NCBI RefSeq assembly: GCF_000614025.1
Contig: NZ_BAKF01000002.1
Location: forward strand, 62,001 to 126,000
Length of the DNA: 64,000 nt
Reading direction: 5' to 3'
From: Prevotella aurantiaca JCM 15754
GTDB lineage: Bacteria; Bacteroidota; Bacteroidia; Bacteroidales; Bacteroidaceae
The position numbers and the translations under genes are program-made. Below, in pieces: positions 4,698 through 48,218 of the stretch (the first letter of the stretch is position 1; each line of letters begins with the position of its first letter). The notes below the pieces were generated by a model. The model saw only the letters and a program-made list of their open reading frames with translations, searched no databases and was not told where the DNA came from.

Positions 4698-6350
4698 CTA
4701 TTGGTCGCTTTTGGGAAAGAAGTATTCCTTGTTGGTTTTTATATCGAGCCAACCTTCTATACCATCTTTTTTAATATAATAAAATGACTTGGTGCGTTGC
4801 TCTAACTCATCGTACACAGGTTCCTTATCACGTGGAAAGAGTCCCACTTTGCCGTCTTTATAGAAATAAATAAGGCCATCACGGCGCATAATAATAGAAT
4901 CGTAAACTATTGGAAGCAACGTTTTGCCTTTGAGTTTCAGGACGGGATAGGTTAGGACAGCCCTTACCCAATTGTACAAACGCTTTATAGTTTTCTTGGG
5001 ATTTACACTTTCTGGCTGCTTATAATCATAGGCAATTATACCATATTTGCCTTTTCTTCCTACTCTTATCCACTCTGGGTACATTTCAATTTCACCAACA
5101 ATATCACTATTACCATCACGTTCAAACTCCTTATCTCCACTGAGGAAGGAAACAGAATCAGTAGGTTGGCAGTCTGAAAGTATATAGCTTTCACCCACTT
5201 CATCGCGTACTCCAGGACCACCAGTATATTTTTTAAACTGATAACTGCCATTTTTCTTCCTCAAACTATATTCCCAATGAGGTACTGTTCCACAGAGAGT
5301 CAATCTTAATTTGGTGGGGCTCTTTATCTTATTACCCTTTTCGTCATAGTAAAAAGGGCCGTTTTCGGTAAGCACTTCTATCGTACCGACATTGCAATTC
5401 ACTACTTCTCGTGCTGCTTTTAAAGCTCCAACATTTAGTTTTTCAAGGTAAAGGTTGTACAAATCAATGCTATTTCCGTTCTTTGCAATGATAAAACGAT
5501 CATCGTAATTTATCGAATCATAATCTAACTTCAATACTTTCTCCCCGAAACCATTCAACAATTGGAGTTTACCTTCTTCCGTTTTGTGAAGACCAAAGTA
5601 TCTTTTCGAGTAGAAGTATTGGAAGTCATAAGCCTTAGCATCAGCATATTTCCCTCCTGCATCGGCTAAACTCACAGGTTGATATGCATACTTAAGGTTT
5701 ATCAACAGGTCGCCTTTGGTAGTTGAAAGCAGTGTATATTCAAAACCACGGGCATGGAACAGCAAAACATTTTTGCCACCTTTTAATTCCAATACAAGTG
5801 GTAAGAGGTGATTAGAGCGGTATGCATGCCAAGTTTTAACAGAGTCTGGAACAACAAAAGACTTTATACATCTCTCATAAATGCCCTCTACTTTTTCGTA
5901 ATACAATTCTTGTACCACAGCAAGGTCGCTTCTTAAGAATTTCAGAACATACTGAGAGGAAGTTTTGTCGCGTTTCCATTCGCCACCTTCCTCTATGTCA
6001 AAGGTCTTCCCAATATAGTCTTTAAGAGAAAGAGAACGGAGGTTTTCAACATCAAAAATATAATCATCGTTCTTCTCCATTTCGCTTCTACTTACTGTAT
6101 CAACTTCAGAACGCATATTCCAGCCTATCAAATACATATCAGAAGACCCATATAAGCGGTCGTTATTTCGACTTGTGGTTAATCTTTTTAGTATATACCT
6201 GCCGTCATTTAGCTTCGTATAGATGCTTAGATCATAACCTCCTTCGCTATAACCGATGGCATCTGCTTCGGGCAAAGAGAATCGTTGCTGGGCAGAGATA
6301 CTTGCTGCAGCACAGCAATAGAGGAATAAAAGAAAAATAGTTCTTTTCAT
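4698..6350 (-). CDS. Secreted hypothetical protein with WG-like beta repeats
   Basis: 550 residues with an N-terminal signal peptide (MKRTIFLLFLYCCAAASISA, cleavage before QQ near residue 20), so exported. The body has degenerate repeats of the WG type: GKYGIIAYDYKQ, DGKVGLFPRDKE and the terminal GIEGWLDIKTNKEY, plus GLIYFYKDGK and GPFYYDEKGNKI. These predict a beta-rich repeat protein in the periplasm or on the surface. No enzymatic motif is seen. A TATCTTTG box lies 20 bp upstream of the start. It is not in an obvious operon. Function unknown. Confidence 0.7.
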   Translation of the reverse strand: MKRTIFLLFLYCCAAASISAQQRFSLPEADAIGYSEGGYDLSIYTKLNDGRYILKRLTTSRNNDRLYGSSDMYLIGWNMRSEVDTVSRSEMEKNDDYIFDVENLRSLSLKDYIGKTFDIEEGGEWKRDKTSSQYVLKFLRSDLAVVQELYYEKVEGIYERCIKSFVVPDSVKTWHAYRSNHLLPLVLELKGGKNVLLFHARGFEYTLLSTTKGDLLINLKYAYQPVSLADAGGKYADAKAYDFQYFYSKRYFGLHKTEEGKLQLLNGFGEKVLKLDYDSINYDDRFIIAKNGNSIDLYNLYLEKLNVGALKAAREVVNCNVGTIEVLTENGPFYYDEKGNKIKSPTKLRLTLCGTVPHWEYSLRKKNGSYQFKKYTGGPGVRDEVGESYILSDCQPTDSVSFLSGDKEFERDGNSDIVGEIEMYPEWIRVGRKGKYGIIAYDYKQPESVNPKKTIKRLYNWVRAVLTYPVLKLKGKTLLPIVYDSIIMRRDGLIYFYKDGKVGLFPRDKEPVYDELEQRTKSFYYIKKDGIEGWLDIKTNKEYFFPKSDQ

Positions 6351-6370
6351 AAATTGATATATTTTAAAGA

Positions 6371-6378
6371 CAAAGATA
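6371..6378 (-). promoter_or_regulatory. -7 box TATCTTTG (minus strand)
   Basis: CAAAGATA on the plus strand reads TATCTTTG on the minus strand, about 20 bp before the start codon of the WG-like gene at 6350. No TTG at -33 is evident. Confidence 0.5.
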
Positions 6379-6544
6379 GTAGTTTTAAAAGAAAAATATG
6401 ACCTATTTAAGAAACTTTAAAACTACAAGACAAAATGTATTAAAGTCTGAAGATAGAACTAAAAAGAAACAAAAAATACGTCGAAAGAACACTAAAAAAG
6501 TCTATATTTCATGTAAAATAAGAGGGAAAACAATGCCGCAAAAC

Positions 6545-6730
6545 TGTAAAGATTTCGACAAATAATTATTATCGCGTAACCACCTTACTATCAACGTATT
6601 ACAATACCCATTGTTTTGCATTCTAAAAGAGCCTGTTTTGCGCGACAAAACAGGCTCTTTTGCAGCGTAAAACAGGCACTATTACAAAGCAATAATGGAT
6701 ATTTGATTTTATAACGGAATTTTCTTTACA
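6545..6730 (+). repeat. 186-bp intergenic repeat, copy 1 (MITE-like)
   Basis: Begins TGTAAAGATT and ends TCTTTACA, forming short terminal inverted repeats. The core at about 6625-6660 is a perfect 16-bp hairpin (AAAAGAGCCTGTTTTG, loop CGCGA, complementary arm), followed by a further half-unit AAAACAGGCACTATT. The same ends and core occur at 14666, 28860 (inverted) and 36242, all 186 or 187 bp. No coding potential. It lies in the 636-bp gap between the WG-like gene and the C1 peptidase gene, with nothing else recognisable except promoter sequence. Confidence 0.85.
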
Positions 6731-6986
6731 AAGTTGTAACAATTTCTGTACCCTGCAACATAACTAATGTGGGTACGTAATGCAATGTATAACATAACAT
6801 CGTATAGTCCCATCAAGAGAATAATAAATATAACCACTCAGCGTACAATAGCAACTTTTGATAAACCTTTTTAAAAAGAATGAGCCTCTACTCGATAGTT
6901 CGAGCAGGGGCTCCATGATTGAATTTGAAGTCAAATCAGGGCATATAGTGGTTTAAATGCCCTTCCCTATAAGCTATAGGGTTATC

Positions 6987-8390
6987 TTAATTGTCCTCTT
7001 GGAACAATGGATCATCAGGTGTAAGCATGATTGGCTTTTGGTCGTAAGCCTTCAATATGTTTTCTGGAACATACTTCTTGTCTATCACAAGACGGAAAGT
7101 GTACTCGTTGAACCATGGGTTTGTCATTATCAAATAACCATTGTGGCCGTTTGTTGGACCCCAACTATTCTCTACCATCCACTTAATTGGCTTTCCGTTT
7201 GCATCGAGATCTACAGCTGTAAGTGTCATAGCGTGAGTAGAACCGCTATCGAATGTAGAAATACGTTCAGCCTTATTCATTGGGAACGATGTACCAAAGA
7301 GTGTACCATAGTCGTAGTTATCCAAGTCCAAGAAGCCACGTTTGCGGTCTAACTGCTTGCCTACGTCATAGCTAGTATACATCTTTGTATTGTCTTTTAA
7401 AGAAGCAATAGACATCTTTGCAATGTCTTCCATAGGAAGATTGATGTACTTCCAGTTGTGTCCATCGTATGTATGGCGGTCGTATTCCACTTCGTAAGTC
7501 TTGTAATACTCACGGCGTGGGTCGTTCATTACCATAATAAAGGTACCATTAAGCTTATTTCCCATCACTTCATCGCGGAACGATTGTGGTGTATAAGTCT
7601 TTGATTGGCCAACGCTATTGCCGTTCTTATCCTTGAAAGCATACTCGAAAGTCTTCACAGGCTCGCCCAATGAGAGGGTAAGAATGCGATAGATGTCGCC
7701 CAACATTTCTGTTTTGCGCGCCTTAATAGCTGCTGCCGACTTCTTATTAGCTACCATCTTACGAAGTTCCAAGCCAAATTCGCGGAGCTTAGAAGAAATG
7801 ATTGACGCCATACGAGAGGTGTTTTCAGCTGAATAACTCTCTGGCATTGCTTCCATAGGAACCAGTCCGTACTTATCAACGAGGTCAGAAACGCCACAGA
7901 AAGTACCACCATCGCTTATCGGATGCTTAAAGAAGAACTGCACAGTAGGGTCTTCTATTGGCTTATTAGCATTATCGATAACACCTTGAAGCATAAGGTT
8001 AGCCTTTTCCAACTGGTCGTGGAAGCTCAAATAAACGTGTGAGAACTCTACTCGAAGCGTGTCTTTGTGCTTGCGAGCAAAGTTAGAACGCAACACATTT
8101 AAACCAGTAAAGAGCCAACATCTGCCCGAACTCTTTTGGTCGTGAATGTTCTGTTTGGTTGTCTCAACGCTGAAATGAGAATTAACTTTTCCCGCTTTCT
8201 TGAAGTTACGGGCAAGGTCATCGATTGAATTTGTCGCAATAGCGTTCGCAAGAGCACGATTAGCAGAAGACGAATTGCCCGCTGTTATCTTCTCCATCAT
8301 TTGCTTATCAATCCCTCCAGCCTTTGTCTGTGCTTGCATTGAAAGCGAAAAGCTAATCAAACCACAGACCATTAAAGTCGTTTTGTTCAT
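6987..8390 (-). CDS. Exported C1B-family aminopeptidase (PepC/bleomycin hydrolase-like)
   Basis: 467-residue papain-fold cysteine peptidase of the bleomycin hydrolase/PepC family. It has the signal peptide MNKTTLMVCGLISFSLSMQAQ (residues 1-21), unlike cytosolic PepC. Catalytic residues visible are Cys91 in SSGRCWLFTG, His in GSTHAMTLTAVD near residue 388, and Asn in VENSWGPTNG near 410. It probably trims peptides in the periplasm or outside the cell, in keeping with an asaccharolytic oral organism (inference). It has its own promoter (TATCTTTG at 8507-8514, TTG 20 bp further upstream). Length is normal for the family. Confidence 0.9.
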   Translation of the reverse strand: MNKTTLMVCGLISFSLSMQAQTKAGGIDKQMMEKITAGNSSSANRALANAIATNSIDDLARNFKKAGKVNSHFSVETTKQNIHDQKSSGRCWLFTGLNVLRSNFARKHKDTLRVEFSHVYLSFHDQLEKANLMLQGVIDNANKPIEDPTVQFFFKHPISDGGTFCGVSDLVDKYGLVPMEAMPESYSAENTSRMASIISSKLREFGLELRKMVANKKSAAAIKARKTEMLGDIYRILTLSLGEPVKTFEYAFKDKNGNSVGQSKTYTPQSFRDEVMGNKLNGTFIMVMNDPRREYYKTYEVEYDRHTYDGHNWKYINLPMEDIAKMSIASLKDNTKMYTSYDVGKQLDRKRGFLDLDNYDYGTLFGTSFPMNKAERISTFDSGSTHAMTLTAVDLDANGKPIKWMVENSWGPTNGHNGYLIMTNPWFNEYTFRLVIDKKYVPENILKAYDQKPIMLTPDDPLFQEDN

Positions 8391-8506
8391 AGAATTTGTT
8401 TGTAACTTTATAGATTATTTCTGTATTTATAGTATCTTGATAGTTGCGTTACTTGCCGTTATCCATGCCCAAAATGCAGAGATAGCCATACGACAAGACG
8501 ACTTTG

Positions 8507-8537
8507 CAAAGATAAATAAAAAACTTTAATTCCACAA
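8507..8537 (-). promoter_or_regulatory. Promoter of the C1 peptidase gene
   Basis: On the minus strand TTG (8535-8537), a 20-bp spacer and TATCTTTG (8507-8514) match the Bacteroidota -33/-7 arrangement. The box lies about 115 bp before the start at 8390. Confidence 0.6.
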
Positions 8538-8676
8538 CTTTATATATAACAATAGCTAAAGTATGTAAAGTAGGACAAGCATTTATGGGCCGCGAACAAC
8601 GTTTTTTCATACTTTCATCTTGGTATTTCTATTGAAAAGGGTTACCTTTGCACTTATAATATCACACTTTTACGCA

Positions 8677-9830
8677 ATGAAAAATATATTTAAGACGTTA
8701 GTTGCAGGCGCATTTCTTATTGGATTAACAGCGTTTATGAGTAGTTGTGGTGGCGAAAAGTTTCATGTTGAAGGAGCAATCAGTAATGCTAAGGACTCCA
8801 TTCTATACTTTGAGCACAACAGTTTGACTGGTTTTACCACCATAGACTCTGTGAAACTCGACGATAAAGGTGCATTCTCGTTTGCAAGCGACAAGGTAAA
8901 TAACCCTGAATTTTATCGTTTGCGCATTGCAGGACAGATTATTAACGTTGCAATAGACTCTATGGAAACGGTTAAGATAACCGCAACGTATCCGCAAATG
9001 GCTACCGATTACAATGTTAATGGGTCGTACGAGAACGAAAAAATAAAGGAGTTGGCATTGAAACAGATTAACTTGCAGACTCAGTGTCAGGCATTATACG
9101 ACCAACAACCACAGGTTGCTGACTCGCTTGTAGAGGTTCTTGTGCAAGCATACAAGAAAGATGTGTCGCACAATTATATATTTAAAGAGCCTATGAAGGC
9201 TTATAGCTACTTCGCACTCTTCCAATATATTGTTGTAAATAACGAGGCGCGACTCATCTTTAACCCTGCTATTGACGCAAAAGATAATAAGGTTTTCGGT
9301 GCAGTAGCTACAAGTTGGGACGCTTTCTACCTAATTCAGAACGTGGGAAGAACTTGCACAACATTACAATTAAGGGTATGCAAGACGACCGAATAACTAC
9401 GGCTTACAAACGACCAGTAGAGATTAAAGCTGAAGAAACGGGAGTTATAGACTTGCCTTTGCGCGACAATAAAGGCAATATGCGCCATCTTACTGACTTA
9501 AAAGGAAAGGTTGTATTGCTTAACTTCCATGCTTTCTCAATTCAAGAATCTCCAGAATATATTATGAAAATGCGTGCATTGTACGATAAATACCACGAAA
9601 GGGGCTTGGAAATATACATGGTTTCGCTCGATGAAAACGAACATTTCTGGAAAGAAAGCGTAGCAAGTTTGCCATGGATTAACGTCTTTGACAATATAGG
9701 AATTAGCCAAGCGTACACCAGTACTGCCACTACAACACCTATTATCTACCTTATCGACCGCAGCAACACTGTTGTAAAGAACCCTTCACAGATAAAAAAT
9801 CTTCCGCAAGAGATAGAGGCTTTGTTGTAA
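8677..9830 (+). pseudogene. TlpA-like lipoprotein with DUF4369 domain, frameshifted
   Basis: ATG at 8677 gives a lipoprotein signal (MKNIFKTLVAGAFLIG, lipobox SSC), then a DUF4369-like beta domain (FHVEGAISNAKDSILYFEH), then a thioredoxin/AhpC-like domain (DLKGKVVLLNFHAFSI). The first frame runs off after SWDAFY near 9330. The -1 frame resumes PNSERGKNLHNI to 9830, so one base is missing (TACCCT read as TACCT). The position of the usual CxxC is FHAFSIQES, with no cysteine, so even the restored protein should not act as a thiol oxidoreductase. It is probably attached to a periplasm-facing membrane. It stands alone and converges on yfcE. Confidence 0.78.
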
Positions 9831-9856
9831 AACAGACTTATATAACATAACAAACG

Positions 9857-9897
9857 GCGAGCCGCTGTTCCTATATTATGGAGGAACAGCGGCTCGC
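9857..9897. terminator. Bidirectional hairpin terminator
   Basis: Perfect 15-bp stem (GCGAGCCGCTGTTCC and its complement) with an 11-nt loop, lying between the convergent TlpA-like and yfcE genes. The T-tract is weak on both sides. Confidence 0.75.
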
Positions 9898-9933
9898 TTC
9901 GTATTCATTATGACCACAATAAAAAAGGTTTCG

Positions 9934-10473
9934 CTACAGCGTATATTGCTTTAAGACCTTTCCTTCCATATCGTAGACTGTGAAAGTTCCCCCTTCATAC
10001 GTCATGAAAGTGGCTACATTGCCTCCCTTTGGAAAGGTTATGGAACCCGTATTGCAAATGAGTGTGCCTGCTTGAGGGGTGATTTCCCACAGGTGTGTAT
10101 GCCCATAGACAACAGCATCGAAGTGTCCTTGTGGCATCTTCTCCTTATTATATATGTGTCCATGTGTAAGGAACAGCTTCTTTCCCTCGTCTACTAACAA
10201 TAGATAATCGCCAAGAATAGGAAAATGAAGCAACATTTGATCGACCTCGCCATCGCAGTTTCCACGAATAGCAACAATATTCTTAGCACGCTCATTCAGC
10301 ATTTCTACAATACCTTTGGGGTCGAGTCCCTCTGGAATAGAGTTACGCGGACCATAGTTTAATATATCTCCCAATATGCAAAGCATATCGCATTGCTGCT
10401 CGTCGTAGAACTTTAACACTGTTTCTAAGGCAGGACGGCAGCCATGAATATCCGATACCAATAAATATTTCAT
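9934..10473 (-). CDS. yfcE: YfcE-family metallophosphodiesterase
   Basis: 179-residue cytosolic calcineurin-like phosphoesterase of the MJ0936/YfcE type. Metal-binding motifs appear in order: SDIHG (residues 7-11), GDILNYGPR near 35, RGNCDGEVD near 69, THGH near 103, and YGHTH near 121, with NTGS near 139. Such enzymes cleave phosphodiester bonds in a metal-dependent way; the natural substrate is unknown. It is a single gene with a TATCTTTG box 18 bp upstream of the start. Length is normal. Confidence 0.9.
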   Translation of the reverse strand: MKYLLVSDIHGCRPALETVLKFYDEQQCDMLCILGDILNYGPRNSIPEGLDPKGIVEMLNERAKNIVAIRGNCDGEVDQMLLHFPILGDYLLLVDEGKKLFLTHGHIYNKEKMPQGHFDAVVYGHTHLWEITPQAGTLICNTGSITFPKGGNVATFMTYEGGTFTVYDMEGKVLKQYTL

Positions 10474-10490
10474 ACGTTTTATTTTGCCGA

Positions 10491-10498
10491 CAAAGATA
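10491..10498 (-). promoter_or_regulatory. -7 box of yfcE
   Basis: CAAAGATA on the plus strand gives TATCTTTG on the minus strand, 18 bp before the yfcE start codon. Confidence 0.5.
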
Positions 10499-10561
10499 CT
10501 ATCTTTAATTCATAATTATTGTTTTTTATGCCTGGAATTATGTTTCGTAAATATTTTTTGC

Positions 10562-10569
10562 TATCTTTG
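10562..10569 (+). promoter_or_regulatory. -7 box of the TPR-like gene
   Basis: TATCTTTG, 35 bp before the ATG at 10605. The divergent yfcE box is only about 65 bp away. Confidence 0.55.
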
Positions 10570-10604
10570 TCATATCTAAACAATATGTAGAAAGGAGTAA
10601 TACT

Positions 10605-11552
10605 ATGGAAGTGAAAGACGTATTTGAACTAAGAAAACAGGGCAAAATAGAGGAGGCGTACAACGCTATCCGTCCTATGTATGCATCACATAAGGGACAT
10701 TACACTACGATAGCTATGTTCTGGGTGGGCGTAGACATTATGAAGCTACGTTATCAGCAGCGCCGTTTGGAGGAAGCATACAAGATATTCCAAAGCTTAA
10801 TGCGCCTTTATCCAACCATGGACGATAGTTCTTTGCGTGGGCAAGCTACTCTTTTGCGTGCCGCTATGTTTGTTTACGACCATAGTACAACCTTCTCTAT
10901 TCTTGATTTTGTATCTAATTGGGGTGTCATAGGGAAGCTAACGGACGACGATTGGCTGATGACAGAGAGCAACGGCCACCCTGTTCAGTCGTTAGGAATG
11001 CGTGTTGTAGACAAAGTATTTAAGGAATTGGAGAGCAAACCAACTGTTGAAATGGCGCTAAAGGCCGCCCCTATTCTTGCCGAAGCGCTAAAACACAGCC
11101 CTTATAACCTTAATAACCAACGCCATAAAGCTACGATTTACACGATAATGGGGAAGCGTGAAAAGGCCATTAACATCTATCGGCACTTACTAAAAAGGCA
11201 CCACAAGTCGTATCTTTACCAAGATTTGGCAGAGTTAATAACCGAAAAGCAACTTAAAATAGCCTTGCTGACACGGGCAATAGCCACACAACGAGAAGAA
11301 AAATACCGCCAAAGGCTGCGCTTTAAGGTTGCTAACATTTTGTTTAACAACGATAAACCGCGTGCAAAATACGAGTTAGAGAAGTGTATTGCAGCCCGAA
11401 AAGCAGCGAAATACTCTATTACTTGGGAGATGCAGAACCTATCTGCCAGCTTAGAAGAGGTGGTTGCTGCCAGCGAGATAGACCAAAAGGCTTTCTATCA
11501 GGCACAGGCTGAAGTGGTGGAAAACTATGTTCGAATAGTGGGAATGCCTTAA
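10605..11552 (+). CDS. TPR-like repeat protein, function unknown
   Basis: 315-residue cytosolic protein, all-helical in appearance. It has TPR-like helix pairs: GKIEEAYNAIRPMYASHKGH near residues 14-33, RRLEEAYKIFQSLMRLYP near 51-68, and GKREKAINIYRHLLKRH near 185-201. No signal peptide, membrane segment or enzyme motif is seen. It probably acts as a protein-interaction scaffold. It is monocistronic: yfcE is divergent and dprA convergent. I do not recognise a named family. Confidence 0.65.
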   Translation: MEVKDVFELRKQGKIEEAYNAIRPMYASHKGHYTTIAMFWVGVDIMKLRYQQRRLEEAYKIFQSLMRLYPTMDDSSLRGQATLLRAAMFVYDHSTTFSILDFVSNWGVIGKLTDDDWLMTESNGHPVQSLGMRVVDKVFKELESKPTVEMALKAAPILAEALKHSPYNLNNQRHKATIYTIMGKREKAINIYRHLLKRHHKSYLYQDLAELITEKQLKIALLTRAIATQREEKYRQRLRFKVANILFNNDKPRAKYELEKCIAARKAAKYSITWEMQNLSASLEEVVAASEIDQKAFYQAQAEVVENYVRIVGMP

Positions 11553-11594
11553 TTTATCCCCCTTTACAAATTATTCCGTTCTTCAAAAGTAGTT

Positions 11595-12725
11595 TTAATA
11601 TTCTAACAAATGGTAGCAGCCGCCTGCTGCTGTCCTCACTATTCCTTTCATTTCGAGTTCGAAAAGCAAGGCCATAAGGCGGGCCATTGGCAGATTAGTT
11701 TGTACGGAAAGCATGTTAATTTGCAGGTCGTTCTGCTTTTGTAGTGCTTTTACTATCGTTTGTTCGTCGTCGTTTAGATCGGGGAAAAGCGAACGTTCGA
11801 TACCTCTTTGTTGTGCTTTTTCAAGTTTTATATCGTTGTCCCAGTTCATTGCCTTCACAAAATCGTAAGCCGAAGTAACCAGACTTGCACCGTTATCGCG
11901 TATCAAATTGTTGCAACCCTCGCTATATTCCGCTCCAATAGGGCCTGGAAAGGCAAACACTTCCCTGCTATAGCTGTGCGCTATGCTACATGTTATGAGC
12001 CCTCCGCCCTTGTTTGCCGATTCAATAAGCAAGGTTGCGTCGGCACAACCAGCCACGATGCGGTTGCGTTGTACGAAGTTTTTAGGCACAGGCTGTGTCT
12101 TTATGGGGTATTCGGTAAGGATTCCACCACCTTGTTTGCACATTTCTCTTGCCGTTTCTGTATGCATTCGTGGATAGATGGTGTCTAATCCATGTGCCAC
12201 AACACCCACAGTATCTAATCCATAGGCTATACTTTCACGATGCGCACAGATGTCTACGCCATACGCAAGGCCGCTTATAATAAGTGCATCGGGACAGATT
12301 GACTTCAATTCACGTATGAAAACACGAATCAAATCACGTCCATACTGAGTGCAATTACGTGTGCCTATGATGTTCAACGTGCGTTGTTTGTTCAGATTAG
12401 CATTACCACGCTTGTAAAGAACCAATGGTGCATCGACACATTCGCGCATGCGTTGCGGATAGTTATCGTCGTTATAGCAAAGCACTTCTATACCATGCTC
12501 CTCGTCGTACTGTAGTTCGTGTTCGGCAAAAGACAACATATTGTCAATGCTTTTCAGCCCGTCTACAAGATGTTGCGATGCATCTGGCAATAGGTCGCGT
12601 ATGTTGTTTCGATGTTCGTAAACCGCTGTTGCCGAACCAGCTTTTTGGTACAGTTCGAGCAAGGCAGGCAGATTAAATCCACTTGCGCGCGTTAATGCAA
12701 TGGCGTAGAGGTGTTCTTGTTTCAT
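11595..12725 (-). CDS. dprA: DNA-processing protein DprA
   Basis: 376-residue DprA/Smf protein, which in competent bacteria loads RecA on incoming single-stranded DNA. The Rossmann-like core is clear: IGTRNCTQYG near residue 122, ISGLAYGVDICAHR near 155, VGVVAHGLDTIYP near 175, ILTEYP near 202, and FVQRNRIVAG near 217. An N-terminal helical domain and a C-terminal winged-helix-like tail (residues 310-370) complete it. It is last in the minus-strand run DUF2851-thioesterase-dprA, 29 bp after the thioesterase, and probably co-transcribed. Confidence 0.93.
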   Translation of the reverse strand: MKQEHLYAIALTRASGFNLPALLELYQKAGSATAVYEHRNNIRDLLPDASQHLVDGLKSIDNMLSFAEHELQYDEEHGIEVLCYNDDNYPQRMRECVDAPLVLYKRGNANLNKQRTLNIIGTRNCTQYGRDLIRVFIRELKSICPDALIISGLAYGVDICAHRESIAYGLDTVGVVAHGLDTIYPRMHTETAREMCKQGGGILTEYPIKTQPVPKNFVQRNRIVAGCADATLLIESANKGGGLITCSIAHSYSREVFAFPGPIGAEYSEGCNNLIRDNGASLVTSAYDFVKAMNWDNDIKLEKAQQRGIERSLFPDLNDDEQTIVKALQKQNDLQINMLSVQTNLPMARLMALLFELEMKGIVRTAAGGCYHLLEY

Positions 12726-12754
12726 GGTTTCTGTTTGTTTTTATTCCGATACCT

Positions 12755-13173
12755 CTACTCTTGTTCCAAGAAAGGTGCGAAAGCCTCGTTGTATTCCTTG
12801 CTTTCTCCCAACTTTCCATTTATCAATATAACGAGCGTAACATCGGCATGGAAGCACAAACGTTCGTCGCTTGCTCGGTAAATATCGTGTGAAAAGATGT
12901 AACGAATGCCATCTTTTCTAAGTGCTAATCGCGATATGAACTCGTCGTCGCAGGTCAACGGTGTTTTATACTCTAAGTTCATGCGTGCCACAACAGGTCG
13001 ATGCCCTGCTCGTGCAACTTTGAAAAGCTAACACCAAGCGACAAAATAAAGCGGTGTCGTGTATGTTCTGTGTAATGCAAGTAGTTAGCATTGTTCACAA
13101 TACCTTGAATATCGCACTCATAGTCGCGCACCTCCATACGGGTTTCGTATATGTATTTCGTGTTCTTTCTCAT
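12755..13173 (-). pseudogene. Hotdog-fold acyl-CoA thioesterase (YbgC/FadM type), frameshifted
   Basis: Restored across one shift, this is a 4-hydroxybenzoyl-CoA thioesterase-type hotdog protein of about 139 residues. It has the catalytic-loop segment VRDYECDIQGIVNNANYLHY (Asp and Asn positions of YbgC) and a second half MNLEYKTPLTCDDEF. The first frame ends LLWHA near 12979. The other frame restores ID-PVVARMNLEYK if one C is added (GACCCT read as GACCT) near 12995. The ATG at 13173 overlaps the DUF2851 stop as ATGA, showing coupling. The operon position just before dprA is usual in Bacteroidales. Confidence 0.85.
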
Positions 13174-14480
13174 TGTTCTTGTTTCTTTTGCTTTAAGTAT
13201 TCGTATCCAATTCGGCAACGTAAGCATTCCTTACGGTCGCAATAATCTTTCTTTAATTGTATCAACGCTTGCGAATCGCCAGCTGTTTCTACTGTAAGTC
13301 CCACCTCTTTCCACATTCTTACAATGTGATTGTTCTCTGCTTTCAAAGCTTCCAAGAATGCAAAAGCACGATCGCAGAGCTTTTCAGACATTCTATATCG
13401 GCCATAAGCGAATAGAATTGGCACAACCGTATTGATAATAATAAGTTCTAACGATGCCTTTGATAGGTTTTTATTCGACTGCTTGCTGTCGTTGCCACCG
13501 AAGGTATAGTGTGTTTCCCAATAGGGGGTTACCTTTGTTTGCAACAATTCTTCCACCTCTTTTATGGTCGTACAGTCTAACAGTTCGCCCAACCCCGATT
13601 GCCGATTATAGTAGAGTTGCGCCAACTGTGCGATGCGAATGTATGGAAAATTTTGCGGTCTCAACCTTAGGAAACGCCATTGTTGTGCGTCCATAGGCGT
13701 GAGCGAGAACTTGTGTGCTAAGTATTTGTATTCGCTTTGTAGGTGCTGAAAGTATTCATCTGCAATGGCTTTGTCGCGGTGTTGCTTAGGTAATGTATCA
13801 ACATTCAGCAATCCTGCCTGTCCCATAAATATTGTTTCAATCTGGAAAAGGTCGTTGCGGTGATGAGCCACAGCTTGAAACGGAATGGCCTTTGCCCATT
13901 GTTCGAAAGCATCGCCATTTATTCCGAAGCCAAAGTTGCGTGCCAGCGATACAAAGTAGGCTACTTCCCAATTGCCATCGCAGGCTTTCAGCCGTTCTGT
14001 TATAGCTATTGTGCGTTGCTCCAATCGTTCAGTTTGCAATGCACTCAGCCACGAATGAATCATTAGTTTCGATAGTTCGGGCACTATTTTATAGCATGGT
14101 GGATAGGCATCGGCAGTGAGTAATTCTGCGTAATGTTGCTTTACTGATTCGGGAACGGGTAGTACAAGCTGTGGCGGAGTGTCGCCATTCTGTTTCGTTA
14201 CTATCATGTCGGCATGCTCCACCACATGCAATACAACATTGTTATAATGGGTATCGGTGTCGTGTCCATGCGTAAACCAATCGGAAGACTTATCGTGTAT
14301 CTCCACATTACCCACCCAAAGCGTTCCGTTTATCTTTACTTTTGCATTGAAAAAGTCGGGTCCTGCATTACTATTGGGCAGCCCTGCATCTATCACTTCT
14401 ACCGATTGACCATCAGTAGTAGCGAGTTGTGCCAGCGGAAATAGTTTGTGTTTCCACACATAGTGGATAAGTTTTTCCAT
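13170..14480 (-). CDS. DUF2851 family protein
   Basis: 436-residue cytosolic protein of the DUF2851 family (Bacteroidota and relatives), function unknown. Start MEKLIHYVWKHKLFP at 14480 is preferred over upstream in-frame starts, because a TATTTTTG box lies just upstream at 14503-14510. Typical segments are DAGLPNSNAGPDFFNAKVKI near residues 32-51, GNVEIHDKSSDW near 58, and VVLHVVEH near 85. The C-terminus has a cysteine cluster (CDRKECLRCRIG) that could bind a metal. First gene of the operon with the thioesterase and dprA. Confidence 0.85.
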   Translation of the reverse strand: MEKLIHYVWKHKLFPLAQLATTDGQSVEVIDAGLPNSNAGPDFFNAKVKINGTLWVGNVEIHDKSSDWFTHGHDTDTHYNNVVLHVVEHADMIVTKQNGDTPPQLVLPVPESVKQHYAELLTADAYPPCYKIVPELSKLMIHSWLSALQTERLEQRTIAITERLKACDGNWEVAYFVSLARNFGFGINGDAFEQWAKAIPFQAVAHHRNDLFQIETIFMGQAGLLNVDTLPKQHRDKAIADEYFQHLQSEYKYLAHKFSLTPMDAQQWRFLRLRPQNFPYIRIAQLAQLYYNRQSGLGELLDCTTIKEVEELLQTKVTPYWETHYTFGGNDSKQSNKNLSKASLELIIINTVVPILFAYGRYRMSEKLCDRAFAFLEALKAENNHIVRMWKEVGLTVETAGDSQALIQLKKDYCDRKECLRCRIGYEYLKQKKQEQ

Positions 14481-14665
14481 AGTTGGTAATGCTTTATGAG
14501 GACAAAAATACAAAAAATTGTCGGAGAAATAAAGAAGTTTCATTGCTTTTTCCACCATAAACGAAAAAGAATGAGTGCTTTTTCGCTTGCTCCGATTTAT
14601 TAAAAGAAGTTGGGTTAATAGTGCTTTTAAAATTTGTATTGTAGGCAAGGAGGAGGCTATAAAAG

Positions 14666-14851
14666 TGTAAATATTTATTACAAGGAATAATATTGCGTAA
14701 CCATCTTGTTTTCAACACGTTGCAATAGAGCCTATTTTACATCGCAAAAGAGCCTATTTTGCACGATAAAAGTGCCTGTTTTGCGCTGCAATATAGGCAC
14801 TATTGCAACGCAAAACCAATTCAACGACTTTACCCAGCAATTATCTTTACA
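14666..14851 (+). repeat. 186-bp intergenic repeat, copy 2
   Basis: Begins TGTAAATATT and ends TCTTTACA. The core at 14722-14816 is a run of roughly 22-nt imperfect palindromes of the form GCAAAAGAGCCTATTTTGC, four units in tandem with small variations. It has the same orientation and length as copy 1. It lies in the 526-bp gap between the DUF2851 start and the PAP2 gene end; nothing else is recognised in that gap. Confidence 0.85.
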
Positions 14852-15006
14852 AAATCAAAGGGATTATTATGATGTGTTACTACTTTTGTTTTAGGGTGTA
14901 ATGTTGCGTGTTTTTCATTATCGGTTCGAGGTTTCTTCAAGATTAAGAAAGCGTTGGACAACCCTCAAAGATGGATTGCGCATACCGTTTCGCTGCACTA
15001 TTGTGC

Positions 15007-16306
15007 CTAAAAAGTTATGAGAAAGGAAGAACCTAATGCCAATGAATGAACGCAAGTGCGTTCTCCTTTCGCACGATAAGACAGTAGGTCGTAATCTAAA
15101 AGAAAGCGAACTCCGTAACGCTGGCGGGCTCTGAATGTTAGCGAAACACCTGTACCGAAACCTATTCCGTGTTGCGAATCAATTAAATAGTTCGTTAGCT
15201 GTAGATTCGGATAATATACACGTTCTGCCAAAAGTTTACTTCCAACAAGCCAACGCGCTGATAGCGGATAAGAGAAATAAGCGCCACCGCTTAATTTCCA
15301 TGTATCGAAAACATTGTTTTCTGCTTTAACTTCGTTTACAATAACCGAAGTACGAGTTACCGAAAATCTTCCACCGGCACCAATATAAGGGTTAAAAAAG
15401 TAAGCACCTTCGACAGATGAAGTACAACCAGAGGATACTTTGAACTCCGAATTCTTCCCAATTGGATAGGAAGCTAAGGGCAAACTGATGAGGAAATTAA
15501 GACTAAAGAAGGTCGGCTTCTGCATCTTATCGAACGTTTCTTGTACGTTTATCGCGTTCAACCCTCGTTTTTTAAATATCAAATCGGCAAAATAGTAGCC
15601 TAATTCCGTAGAAACGATACCTATTCCTGCCCCTGTTAGCACATCACTCAGCCAGTGTTTATTGTTAGCCATACGCATAAGACCTGTTGCAGAGGCTACA
15701 GTATAGGCTCCAATGCCCACCCATGGACTTCGAAAGCCATACTCTTTGGCCAACATTGTAGCGTCATGAAGGCTGTTGCAGTATGTCCAGAAGGGAAAGA
15801 GAATCGGTCTGAGCCATCTGGACGCTCTACTTTGATGGAATGTTTCAGCGAATTTACAATACCAGCCATTAGCGCTATCGACATCGCATCGGAAATAAGC
15901 ATTCGTCCCCAGCTACTTCTTCCTTCTACACCGCCTAACTTTAAGCCAACCATAACGGCTGCAGGAAGATACTGAGTATAGTTATCTAAGCTTCTATCAA
16001 ACTCTGGTAAATAATCGTTTCTTAAACCACGGAAATGCTTATTCTGCCCTTTTACAATAAGACCGTTTACAATAAGCGGCGCACTGGTATATATAATCTT
16101 GTGGAAACGAGTGTCGCTAATGCGGTCGAGCGTATTTCCTACCTTCTCAAGAACGGAACTTGAATCGGCAATAATGCCTAAACTATCGACCATTCCTCTT
16201 GAATATACTTGCTTGATAGTATCATTCAATGAAACGTATGCCTTTGCCTGACAGCAAAAACATACTAATATCATCATTAGCAAAGATACTTCTTAAAACT
16301 ATTCAT
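15007..16306 (-). pseudogene. PAP2 phosphatase fused to a C-terminal beta-barrel, two frameshifts
   Basis: PAP2 (type 2 phosphatidic acid phosphatase) motifs are all present across a frame break: KHSIKVERPDG (KxxxxxxRP), FPSGHTATAF (PSGH), and MRMANNKHWLSDV (RxxxxxHxxxD). A strand-rich C-terminal region of about 170 residues ending in SFLITF looks like an outer-membrane barrel. Shift 1 near 15757 (ATGAC-GCT) separates PSGH from the last motif. Shift 2 near 16279 is inferred: ATG at 16306 reads MNSFKKYLC, and one added base joins it to LMMILVCFCCQAKA, making a proper signal peptide. A TAACTTTG box at 16358-16365 supports this start. Likely role: lipid A or undecaprenyl-pyrophosphate dephosphorylation. 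Confidence 0.8.
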
Positions 16307-28859: not shown

Positions 28860-29046
28860 TGTAAAGAAAAACACAAGTACAAATCGATAATAATTGTTTT
28901 GTATTGCAAAAGTGCCTGTTTTGCATTGCAATAGTGCCTATTTTACCATGCAAAACAGGCTCTTTTAGAACGCAAAATAGGCACTATTTAAAAACGTTGA
29001 AAATCAGATTATTGCACAAGAAAGCTCTTTAAGAATTATCTTTACA
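28860..29046 (-). repeat. 187-bp intergenic repeat, copy 3, inverted
   Basis: Begins TGTAAAGAAA and ends TCTTTACA. Its reverse complement aligns with copies 1, 2 and 4: ATCTGATTTTCAACGTT and GCGTTCTAAAAGAGCCTG match copy 1 in order. The core has tandem CAAAACAGGC/GCCTATTTTGC palindromes. It lies in the 764-bp gap between pdxS and the LRR gene; the rest of that gap shows no gene or RNA that I can support. Confidence 0.82.
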
Positions 29047-36147: not shown

Positions 36148-36241
36148 TACTATCGCTCTAAAAAATCCATAAAGCTACAATAAGAAGGGATGCAGACATA
36201 TCTGTACCCCTATTTCGTAGGCACAAAAGCTATGACAAAAG

Positions 36242-36427
36242 TGTAAATATTTTTCAAACATACTCTTATCGCATAACAAACTCATTATTAAGACCTTACA
36301 ACACCCATTGTTTTGCATTCCAAAAGAGTCTGTTTTGCACGATAAAACAGGCTCTTTTGCGTTGCAAAACAGCCGCTTTTGCAACGTCAAAGTGTAACCA
36401 TCACTTTTTAACGAGATTATCTTTACA
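36242..36427 (+). repeat. 186-bp intergenic repeat, copy 4
   Basis: Begins TGTAAATATT and ends TCTTTACA. The core has AAAAGAGTCTGTTTTGC facing AAAACAGGCTCTTTTGC, followed by another half-unit. The phrase ACACCCATTGTTTTGCATTC before the core is nearly identical to copy 1. It occupies much of the gap between the DUF4252 gene and topA. Confidence 0.85.
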
Positions 36428-36591
36428 AAATTATAGTTATGTTTGCGTATACCCAAAGTGCTAAAATGAGAACAGTTTTCCATAGCAAACTCTTAGCAAG
36501 CATCGCTGTTCCGTACTACTCTTTTAGGAATGGTAGTCTTAAAAAAACAAAAAATAGTCCCTATATATAAGGTGTATGTAAAAACTTTGCT

Positions 36592-47960: not shown

Positions 47961-48218
47961 TTGTTATTGGTACTTTCTCTTAAGTTATTTAATCGTCCTT
48001 TGAAAGCCGTGTTTTCACTCTGAAAATCAGATATACTTCTTCATTTAAATAAAAAAAATGAGTTCGATATATGTTCTATGTGGTTGGTTTGACGTTATCA
48101 ACTTTATACGTCTTCAACTTTCTACACAGATTCCTTATATCGAACTCACGTTTTATTGGGGAGTCCTTCCTGTTCATAGATAGAAAAACAAGTTTCGCAC
48201 ACTATGAACAACAGCTAT

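Follow-up and report, generated by a model that had tools for sequence, protein, structure and literature searches.

Four intergenic segments of nearly identical length lie within 64,000 nucleotides of the genome of Prevotella aurantiaca JCM 15754 (the whole of this stretch is referred to as the window), and they raise the question of what kind of element they are and how it became dispersed. A preliminary description of the sequence had read them as a family with TGTAAA and TTTACA ends and a variable interior, either a non-autonomous mobile element (MITE) or a regulatory RNA module, that matched no named element. Here, we compare the family in the window's genome (G000) with that in Prevotella falsenii DSM 22864 (G017) and in a second relative (G084). 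The segments appear to be bare copies of the Prevotella repeat PINSR, and larger units, in which such a core stands between arms with IS982-type ends and which are called armed below, would be moved in trans by an IS982-type transposase, thereby spreading PINSR. Judged from sequence comparison, we put the probability of this reading at about 0.7.

The window copies and the PINSR family

All four segments were found where they had been placed (Table 1), each starting with TGTAAA and ending with TTTACA. Together with 32 further copies they align nearly without gaps (36 rows, 191 columns) and share one ordered pattern; this alignment and its profile leave out six of the 42 copies first aligned, whose ends have diverged (L025, L034, L035, L039, L041 and L042). 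Further copies exist genome-wide, as the 36-copy profile detected 54 loci in 460 kb of the window's genome. The variability ascribed to the interior holds for a left spacer (about positions 13–33) and for part of the tail, whereas the 88 bp occupied by the bricks described below are better conserved. TGTAAA and TTTACA were rejected as transposon termini since they are internal and conserved positions run on beyond them on both sides. A protein-coding reading of copy 4, which is overlapped by an open frame of 102 amino acids (36175–36483, minus strand), was set aside.

Table 1. Positions in the window of the four PINSR copies and of their bricks.
Feature	Position	Strand	Remark
PINSR copy 1, 186 bp core	6545–6730	+	elements at the corresponding place in P. 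falsenii (G017) and G084
Four 22-bp bricks of copy 1	6600–6687	+	bricks 2 and 3 are an inverted pair
PINSR copy 2, 186 bp core	14666–14851	+	synteny with G084 and G017 is broken here
Four 22-bp bricks of copy 2	14721–14808	+	
PINSR copy 3, 187 bp core	28860–29046	-	
Four 22-bp bricks of copy 3	28904–28991	-	
PINSR copy 4, 186 bp core	36242–36427	+	flanked by a DUF4252 gene and a gene for a type I DNA topoisomerase; the corresponding place also has elements in G017 and G084
Four 22-bp bricks of copy 4	36297–36384	+	

With copy 1 as the query, at least 72 matches at E ≤ 0.001 were obtained in G000, comprising 40 places and 32 matches on the opposite strand (the best 40 of 192 candidates were scored). 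The 18-mer of the first brick, CAATACCCATTGTTTTGC, occurs in this genome at 102 places with up to three mismatches, as against 4 for a reversed control, and at 84 places with up to two mismatches, as against none. In a sample of 299 genomes from the genus, three are rich at two mismatches, namely G000 (84 places), P. falsenii (140) and G084 (142), and the remaining 296 have at most 4 places each.

In the accessible text of Naito et al. (2015, PMC4755523), PINSR is a 188-bp incomplete intergenic repeat with 177 and 184 copies in two strains of P. intermedia, present also in P. nigrescens, P. falsenii (by PCR) and P. disiens. In P. intermedia ATCC 25611 one copy lies downstream of tnaA; copies are found at some rearrangement sites, the repeat most likely holds no coding sequence, and it is stated to have no terminal inverted repeats (TIRs) and is hence set apart from MITEs. 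The present family fits PINSR by its traits rather than by consensus letters. It is intergenic, most full copies measure 186–187 bp, and its abundance (84–102 places in G000 and the counts given above for the other two) is confined to three of the 299 genomes sampled, P. falsenii among them, in keeping with a repeat of the P. intermedia/nigrescens group. In one of the three genomes, G084, tnaA is followed at a distance of about 240 bp by a full core (1–186) with both arms; downstream of this gene P. falsenii has a right-arm piece only and G000 no PINSR. The window copies appear to be members of a known repeat family, which had been correctly spotted; the proposed ends were wrong, as its unnamed status probably was. 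Among the matches listed in a literature search, PMC4755523 alone deals with PINSR in this sense or with a 188-bp Prevotella repeat. It was also the only match for ISPi1 as an insertion sequence, other titles being off-subject, and the combination of IS982, MITE and Prevotella led to one paper, on P. gingivalis.

Some atypical copies deserve mention. P. ihumii holds a single left half of PINSR (L051, 7222–7303) near a stretch of 5.8 kb that is 84.5% identical to contig C144 of G000, itself with a right half, and transfer between species is a possible source of this similarity. In G084 (C1, 173936–175440; L084) the PINSR parts 1–142 and 117–186 are separated by an apparent insertion of about 1.3 kb. 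A tandem array at about 37–59 kb of contig C148 in G000 (L057–L058) has gaps 2.9–4 kb apart that carry PINSR variants with unusual ends; the three genes checked in this array code for C10 proteases that carry a T9SS sorting tail, and two of these proteases also have a Spi inhibitor domain.

Brick anatomy and the edges of the bare unit

Across 42 G000 copies the element follows a 22-bp lattice of a 55 bp leader, four bricks and a tail, the leader or the tail being blurred where the ends have diverged. Each brick is composed of GCAAAA, seven bases, TTTTGC and a short link, with A4 and T4 arms 11 bp apart on either side of the 7-bp core, and the A and T tracts repeat at 11 bp spacing through the bricks. 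The first brick is mostly CAATACCCATTG.. in G000 and CAAAACCTATTG.. in G084 and P. falsenii. Indels are nearly absent and the 22-bp register is kept: exactly 186 bp were counted in 38 of 51 full copies in G000, 34 of 35 in G084 and 26 of 31 in P. falsenii, and P. falsenii also has three copies, of 164, 164 and 208 bp, that are off by exactly one brick. Brick numbers were taken from the distance between outer motifs and are rough, with none assigned in 29 of 75 copies in G000, 7 of 42 in G084 and 13 of 41 in P. falsenii.

The copies of exactly 186 bp (38 from G000, 34 from G084 and 26 from P. falsenii) form the basis of the statistics on brick cores and pairing. In bricks 2–4 the prevailing cores are GNGCCTR with its reverse complement in G000, GCGGCTS and GCGTAGG in G084, and GCGGCTG, GCGTAGG and CCGTAGG in P. 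falsenii. They are species-specific, yet bricks 2 and 4 remain largely complementary, brick 4 being nearly always inverted relative to brick 2. Best-of-three brick pairing exceeded that of column shuffles in G084 (6.35 versus 5.81, reached in 0 of 2000 shuffles) and in P. falsenii (6.42 versus 5.93, 22 of 2000) and showed no excess in G000 (5.84 versus 5.81, 925 of 2000); perfect 7/7 pairs were in no clear excess over shuffles in any genome (216, 1018 and 67 of 2000). Relative to the published description of PINSR, the accessible text of which contains no brick anatomy, the bricks and their species-specific cores seem to be new.

A similar layout is known from the BrickBuilt MITE of Porphyromonas gingivalis (Klein et al. 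2015, PMC4596501), which belongs to the same order Bacteroidales, is intergenic and also consists of a leader, short tandem bricks and a tail. According to the accessible text of that paper, BrickBuilt has direct bricks of 23 nt in 1 to 22.8 copies and IS5-like TIRs of the type GAGACC.., whereas the bricks here are 22 bp long, mostly four in number and of mixed orientation, and the GAGACC-type TIR is absent; membership was rejected on these differences in ends and bricks. BIME/REP, ERIC and QMITE2, compared by description only, are alike in being many-copy intergenic imperfect palindromes, and truncated QMITE2 copies without TIRs are said to resemble REPs in the accessible part of a review (PMC10969869).

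The extent of the bare unit was determined with random genomic controls and again with a composition-matched control, the reversed consensus. Similarity extends about 31 bp to the left of the 186-bp core and about 12 bp to its right, and ends there. From −31 to −1 the bare copies of the three genomes (45, 29 and 16) resembled the armed consensus at 0.47, 0.54 and 0.57, compared with 0.38, 0.40 and 0.42 for the control, and from +1 to +13 there was a weak excess (0.49, 0.48 and 0.48 versus 0.43, 0.45 and 0.41), while farther out the similarity was within 0.04 of the control. In G084 and P. falsenii, bare copies have a right extension of their own of about 16 bp. The edges of the bare copies show no evident inverted repeat.

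Armed units with IS982-type ends

Two P. falsenii sites are empty in G084 (G017_C92:46031 and 87711), and at both the absent stretch far exceeds 186 bp. Its ends are close to ACGTGAGTTCGGTATAAG and the reverse complement in the former, and in the latter the right end alone is an intact TIR. This count leaves out G017_C61:5412, G084_C1a:131581 and G017_C92:119991, where no clean alignment was obtained, and G017_C92:80995 and 95369; G084_C1a:146672 was rejected as a site empty in G017 since it faces a deletion derivative. Relative to the core, the TIR motif occurs at about −167 (or −255), inverted at −48 (or −136) and again inverted at about +83, the second set of left positions being due to an insert of 88 bp common to the left arms of six P. 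falsenii copies. Arm profiles assigned both arms to 11 of 41 sampled P. falsenii cores, the left only to 2, the right only to 5 and none to 23; among 42 G084 cores the corresponding numbers were 3, 2, 1 and 36. At least one arm is thus present in 18 of 41 and 6 of 42 cores, as against 0 of 75 in G000, and in the latter genome the IS982-type repeat was found at the armed-copy positions of none of the 51 full-length copies.

The TIR list yielded 13 further P. falsenii stretches, mostly with two motifs about 500 bp apart, and in eight of these a core lies between two outer TIRs (up to 4 mismatches) in a unit of 455–565 bp. Target duplications flanking these eight units match at 7/7 letters in three (L137, L139 and L140) and at 6/7 in two (L143 and L144); in the other three, 2–3 letters match in register and six letters are shared in the next register. 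The nine two-ended copies collected earlier include one with 7/7 in register, another with 7/7 one base off and one with 6/7, and their sum of 35 of 63 matching letters was reached in 48 of 5000 shuffles (mean 26.0), figures to be read with the AT-rich flanks of the armed units in mind. The armed units of P. falsenii and G084 accordingly have the features of MITEs: TIRs in common with a resident IS, target duplications of 7 bp around part of them, a length of a few hundred bp and no room for a transposase gene. Deletion derivatives that retain TIR pieces and have lost the bricks are also present.

The window copies are bare and show no evident TIR at the conserved edge, and the published lack of TIRs in PINSR thus holds for them, in contrast to the both-armed cores of P. 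falsenii and G084. The preliminary description was right about a dispersed, non-autonomous element, and its MITE reading is unsupported for the copies on which it was based. Support for that reading comes from a subset of the P. falsenii copies, where the target duplications and empty sites that it called for were encountered. While TIRs are denied in the PINSR paper, some copies here lie inside larger units with 18-bp IS982-type TIRs and 7-bp duplications; this apparent carrier form is an addition to what is reported in PMC4755523.

IS982-family transposases scoring above the curated cut-off were found at 14 places in G084 and at none in G000 or P. falsenii, which have only fragments below the cut-off, and the intact IS with matching ends thus sits in G084 and not in P. 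falsenii. The element of G084 is 1,025 bp long with ends ACGTGAGTTCGATATAAG, of which 17 of 18 letters equal the end of the armed units. One copy is flanked on either side by TATCAAA, and two other copies inspected (L125 and L094) have no matching duplication. This element may correspond to ISPi1. According to the accessible text of PMC4755523, ISPi1 of P. intermedia shares the inverted repeats and the 7-bp duplication of ISPg3. The latter is filed under IS5 in the part of PMC4596501 available, whereas the element here matches the IS982 model.

Within the left arm, two TIRs 139 bp apart delimit a piece that by itself resembles a complete small MITE. Local alignment of this piece to a 239-bp MITE of G084 scored 63.5, the highest of 200 shuffles being 46.5. 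Four MITEs of 238–239 bp with IS982-type ends are present in G084 (L131–L134), two of them with exact 7-bp duplications, and in length and ends they are like MITE239 of P. gingivalis. The end of MITE239, ACGTGAGTTCGATATAA (table 2, PMC4596501), is nearly that of the armed units; the descriptions in the accessible text mention no PINSR-like core, and the relation was judged by ends and length only. The window itself contains a stub of about 94 bp (48059–48152) with IS982-type ends on both sides (ATGAGTTCGATATA ... CTTATATCGAACTCACGT) and no PINSR, apparently derived by deletion from a member of this transposon family.

Outside the 75 cores, a single armed copy was found in G000 (L129, C129:27500–30000). 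It is 93–96% identical to G084 across core, arms and flanks, which exceeds the 76–89% seen between window genes and G084, and the stretch is therefore likely to be imported DNA. The identity of the core at this locus (0.946) is similar to that of the arms (0.936 and 0.949), and this equal divergence is evidence against a strongly constrained core over so short a time.

Genomic context and competing readings

With regard to context and REARRANGEMENT, 134 elements between called genes comprise 48 in convergent, 70 in tandem and 16 in divergent gaps, compared with 23.2, 83.8 and 27.0 expected from intergenic length (chi-square 33.3). Elements lie at a median distance of 165 bp from the 3′ end of a gene (n = 166), as against 285 bp for a 5′ end (n = 102). 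Of those in tandem gaps, 27 run along the genes and 43 opposite to them (12 and 28 for P. falsenii and G084 combined). Gene calls were home-made (coding 0.77–0.80), which makes these context figures approximate.

Such a placement could be taken to favour the second alternative of the preliminary description, a cis-acting or small regulatory RNA module in which transcribed hairpins would serve as putative 3′-end signals, terminator or mRNA stabiliser, for the neighbouring genes. The hairpins are strong, folding z-scores of 14 copies per genome averaging −4.3 to −4.8 as against −0.7 to 0.0 for the joined flanks, and the excess of convergent gaps agrees with this function. On the other hand, both strands fold equally well, the tandem copies give no preference to the sense strand and the elements lie rather far from the genes to be their own terminators. 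No intrinsic terminator was flagged inside the two copies scanned (window 6300–15100), by rules that can miss stems containing the T run, and in the window no Rfam family other than a tRNA scored above the gathering threshold. A conserved RNA fold was rejected (RNAalifold gave 13 pairs with a covariation term of 0.01), and covariation within G000 was not above shuffles. Avoidance of promoters would yield the identical context, and selection against promoter disruption fits the convergent bias as well as a 3′-end role does. An RNA module is improbable.

The phased tracts could alternatively form a binding array for a hypothetical nucleoid or recombination protein, in which A/T tracts at 11-bp phase bend the DNA and replacement of the brick cores throughout a species reflects co-evolution with the protein. 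The 22-bp register with so few indels and the species-specific cores are in line with such an array, as is a predicted curvature above that of shuffles (mean z 1.8, 2.9 and 2.3, computed with wedge parameters). This excess is modest, however, and gene conversion or re-amplification alone can bring about concerted change, and we regard the binding array as quite improbable.

Comparison of positions between genomes is suggestive of exchange among copies. For 41 P. falsenii elements, the examined G084 stretches had an element at the same place in 10 cases, the place without an element in 6 and the flanks at different places in 11, and 14 were unjudgeable; for 42 G084 elements against P. falsenii the numbers were 12, 3, 6 and 21. 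The 75 G000 elements gave, in the same order, 4, 0, 2 and 69 against G084 and 3, 1, 2 and 69 against P. falsenii. Left and right neighbours have been exchanged between elements, for example at G017_C72:8339 and C58:4583 relative to G084 328456, 345306 and 352237. These junctions would fit recombination between copies, which is also reported in the accessible text of Naito et al. (PMC4755523). Orthologous copies are somewhat closer to each other than non-orthologous ones (identity 0.853 versus 0.788, from 8 full-length pairs between P. falsenii and G084 and 2 each between G000 and either of them), and full homogenisation by concerted evolution is thus unsupported.

The origin of the bare copies could also be sought in decay. 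PINSR would then always have been the middle of an IS982-type MITE, and the bare copies would be old insertions whose arms have decayed and whose core has been kept by selection or gene conversion. Single-armed intermediates do exist (left arm only in 2 of 41 and 2 of 42, right arm only in 5 of 41 and 1 of 42), and in P. falsenii armed cores are closer to the consensus than bare ones (0.878, n = 12, versus 0.843, n = 14; p = 0.019). In G084 this is not clearly so (0.884, n = 6, versus 0.862, n = 28; p = 0.32). At orthologous sites the core is 0.86 identical compared with 0.63 in the adjacent stretch −59 to −28, a comparison of 8 pairs that is confounded by coding flanks. Against decay, the similarity of bare copies to the arms does not fade beyond −31 and drops to within 0.04 of background in all three genomes, and −31 coincides with the end of the internal 139-bp TIR pair. 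This sharp edge and the MITE-like TIR pair within the left arm are the reasons why capture of PINSR by MITE ends is preferred. Decay is unlikely, and it retains a minor share of the weight because of the single-armed copies and the P. falsenii armed cores nearer to the consensus.

In the preferred reading, then, the four window segments would be bare copies of PINSR, a non-coding repeat dispersed in genomes of the Prevotella intermedia group. The A4/T4 arms, together with the nearly constant opposite orientation of bricks 2 and 4, allow the DNA or either transcript to fold into hairpins. An IS982-type, ISPi1-like transposase may mobilise the larger armed units in trans and in this way have spread PINSR. 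Bare copies would be residents that have lost, or never had, such ends; they would be kept intergenic, mostly at gene 3′ ends, and would exchange sequence and position through recombination between copies. More weakly, the folded and phased A/T-tract array might have a role at the DNA level in the fashion of palindromes of the BIME and ERIC type. Several observations weigh against the preferred reading: the 75 G000 cores contain no armed copy and the sole exception, in C129, looks imported, of the three genomes G084 alone has the tnaA copy, three of the eight two-ended units have only 2–3 duplication letters that match in register, the flanks are AT-rich, two of the inspected IS982 copies show no matching duplication, and brick pairing in G000 is no better than in shuffles.

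As a tentative picture, which may well prove wrong, PINSR could lead two lives. It could be a resident palindrome array of about 230 bp and strict size that pre-dates the IS982-type ends, with cores turning over genome-wide and bricks 2 and 4 staying largely complementary as if they tracked a DNA-binding partner. It could then have become mobile in the P. falsenii lineage when captured by IS982-type MITE ends, with the 139-bp MITE-like piece on the left and a MITE end on the right.

When PINSR was described in 2015, its source and function were left open and it was declared not to be a MITE. The armed units offer a plausible mobiliser and make the spread of the repeat testable, and the brick anatomy with its species-specific cores provides a concrete starting point for the study of function and of rearrangement driven by repeats in this group of periodontal bacteria.
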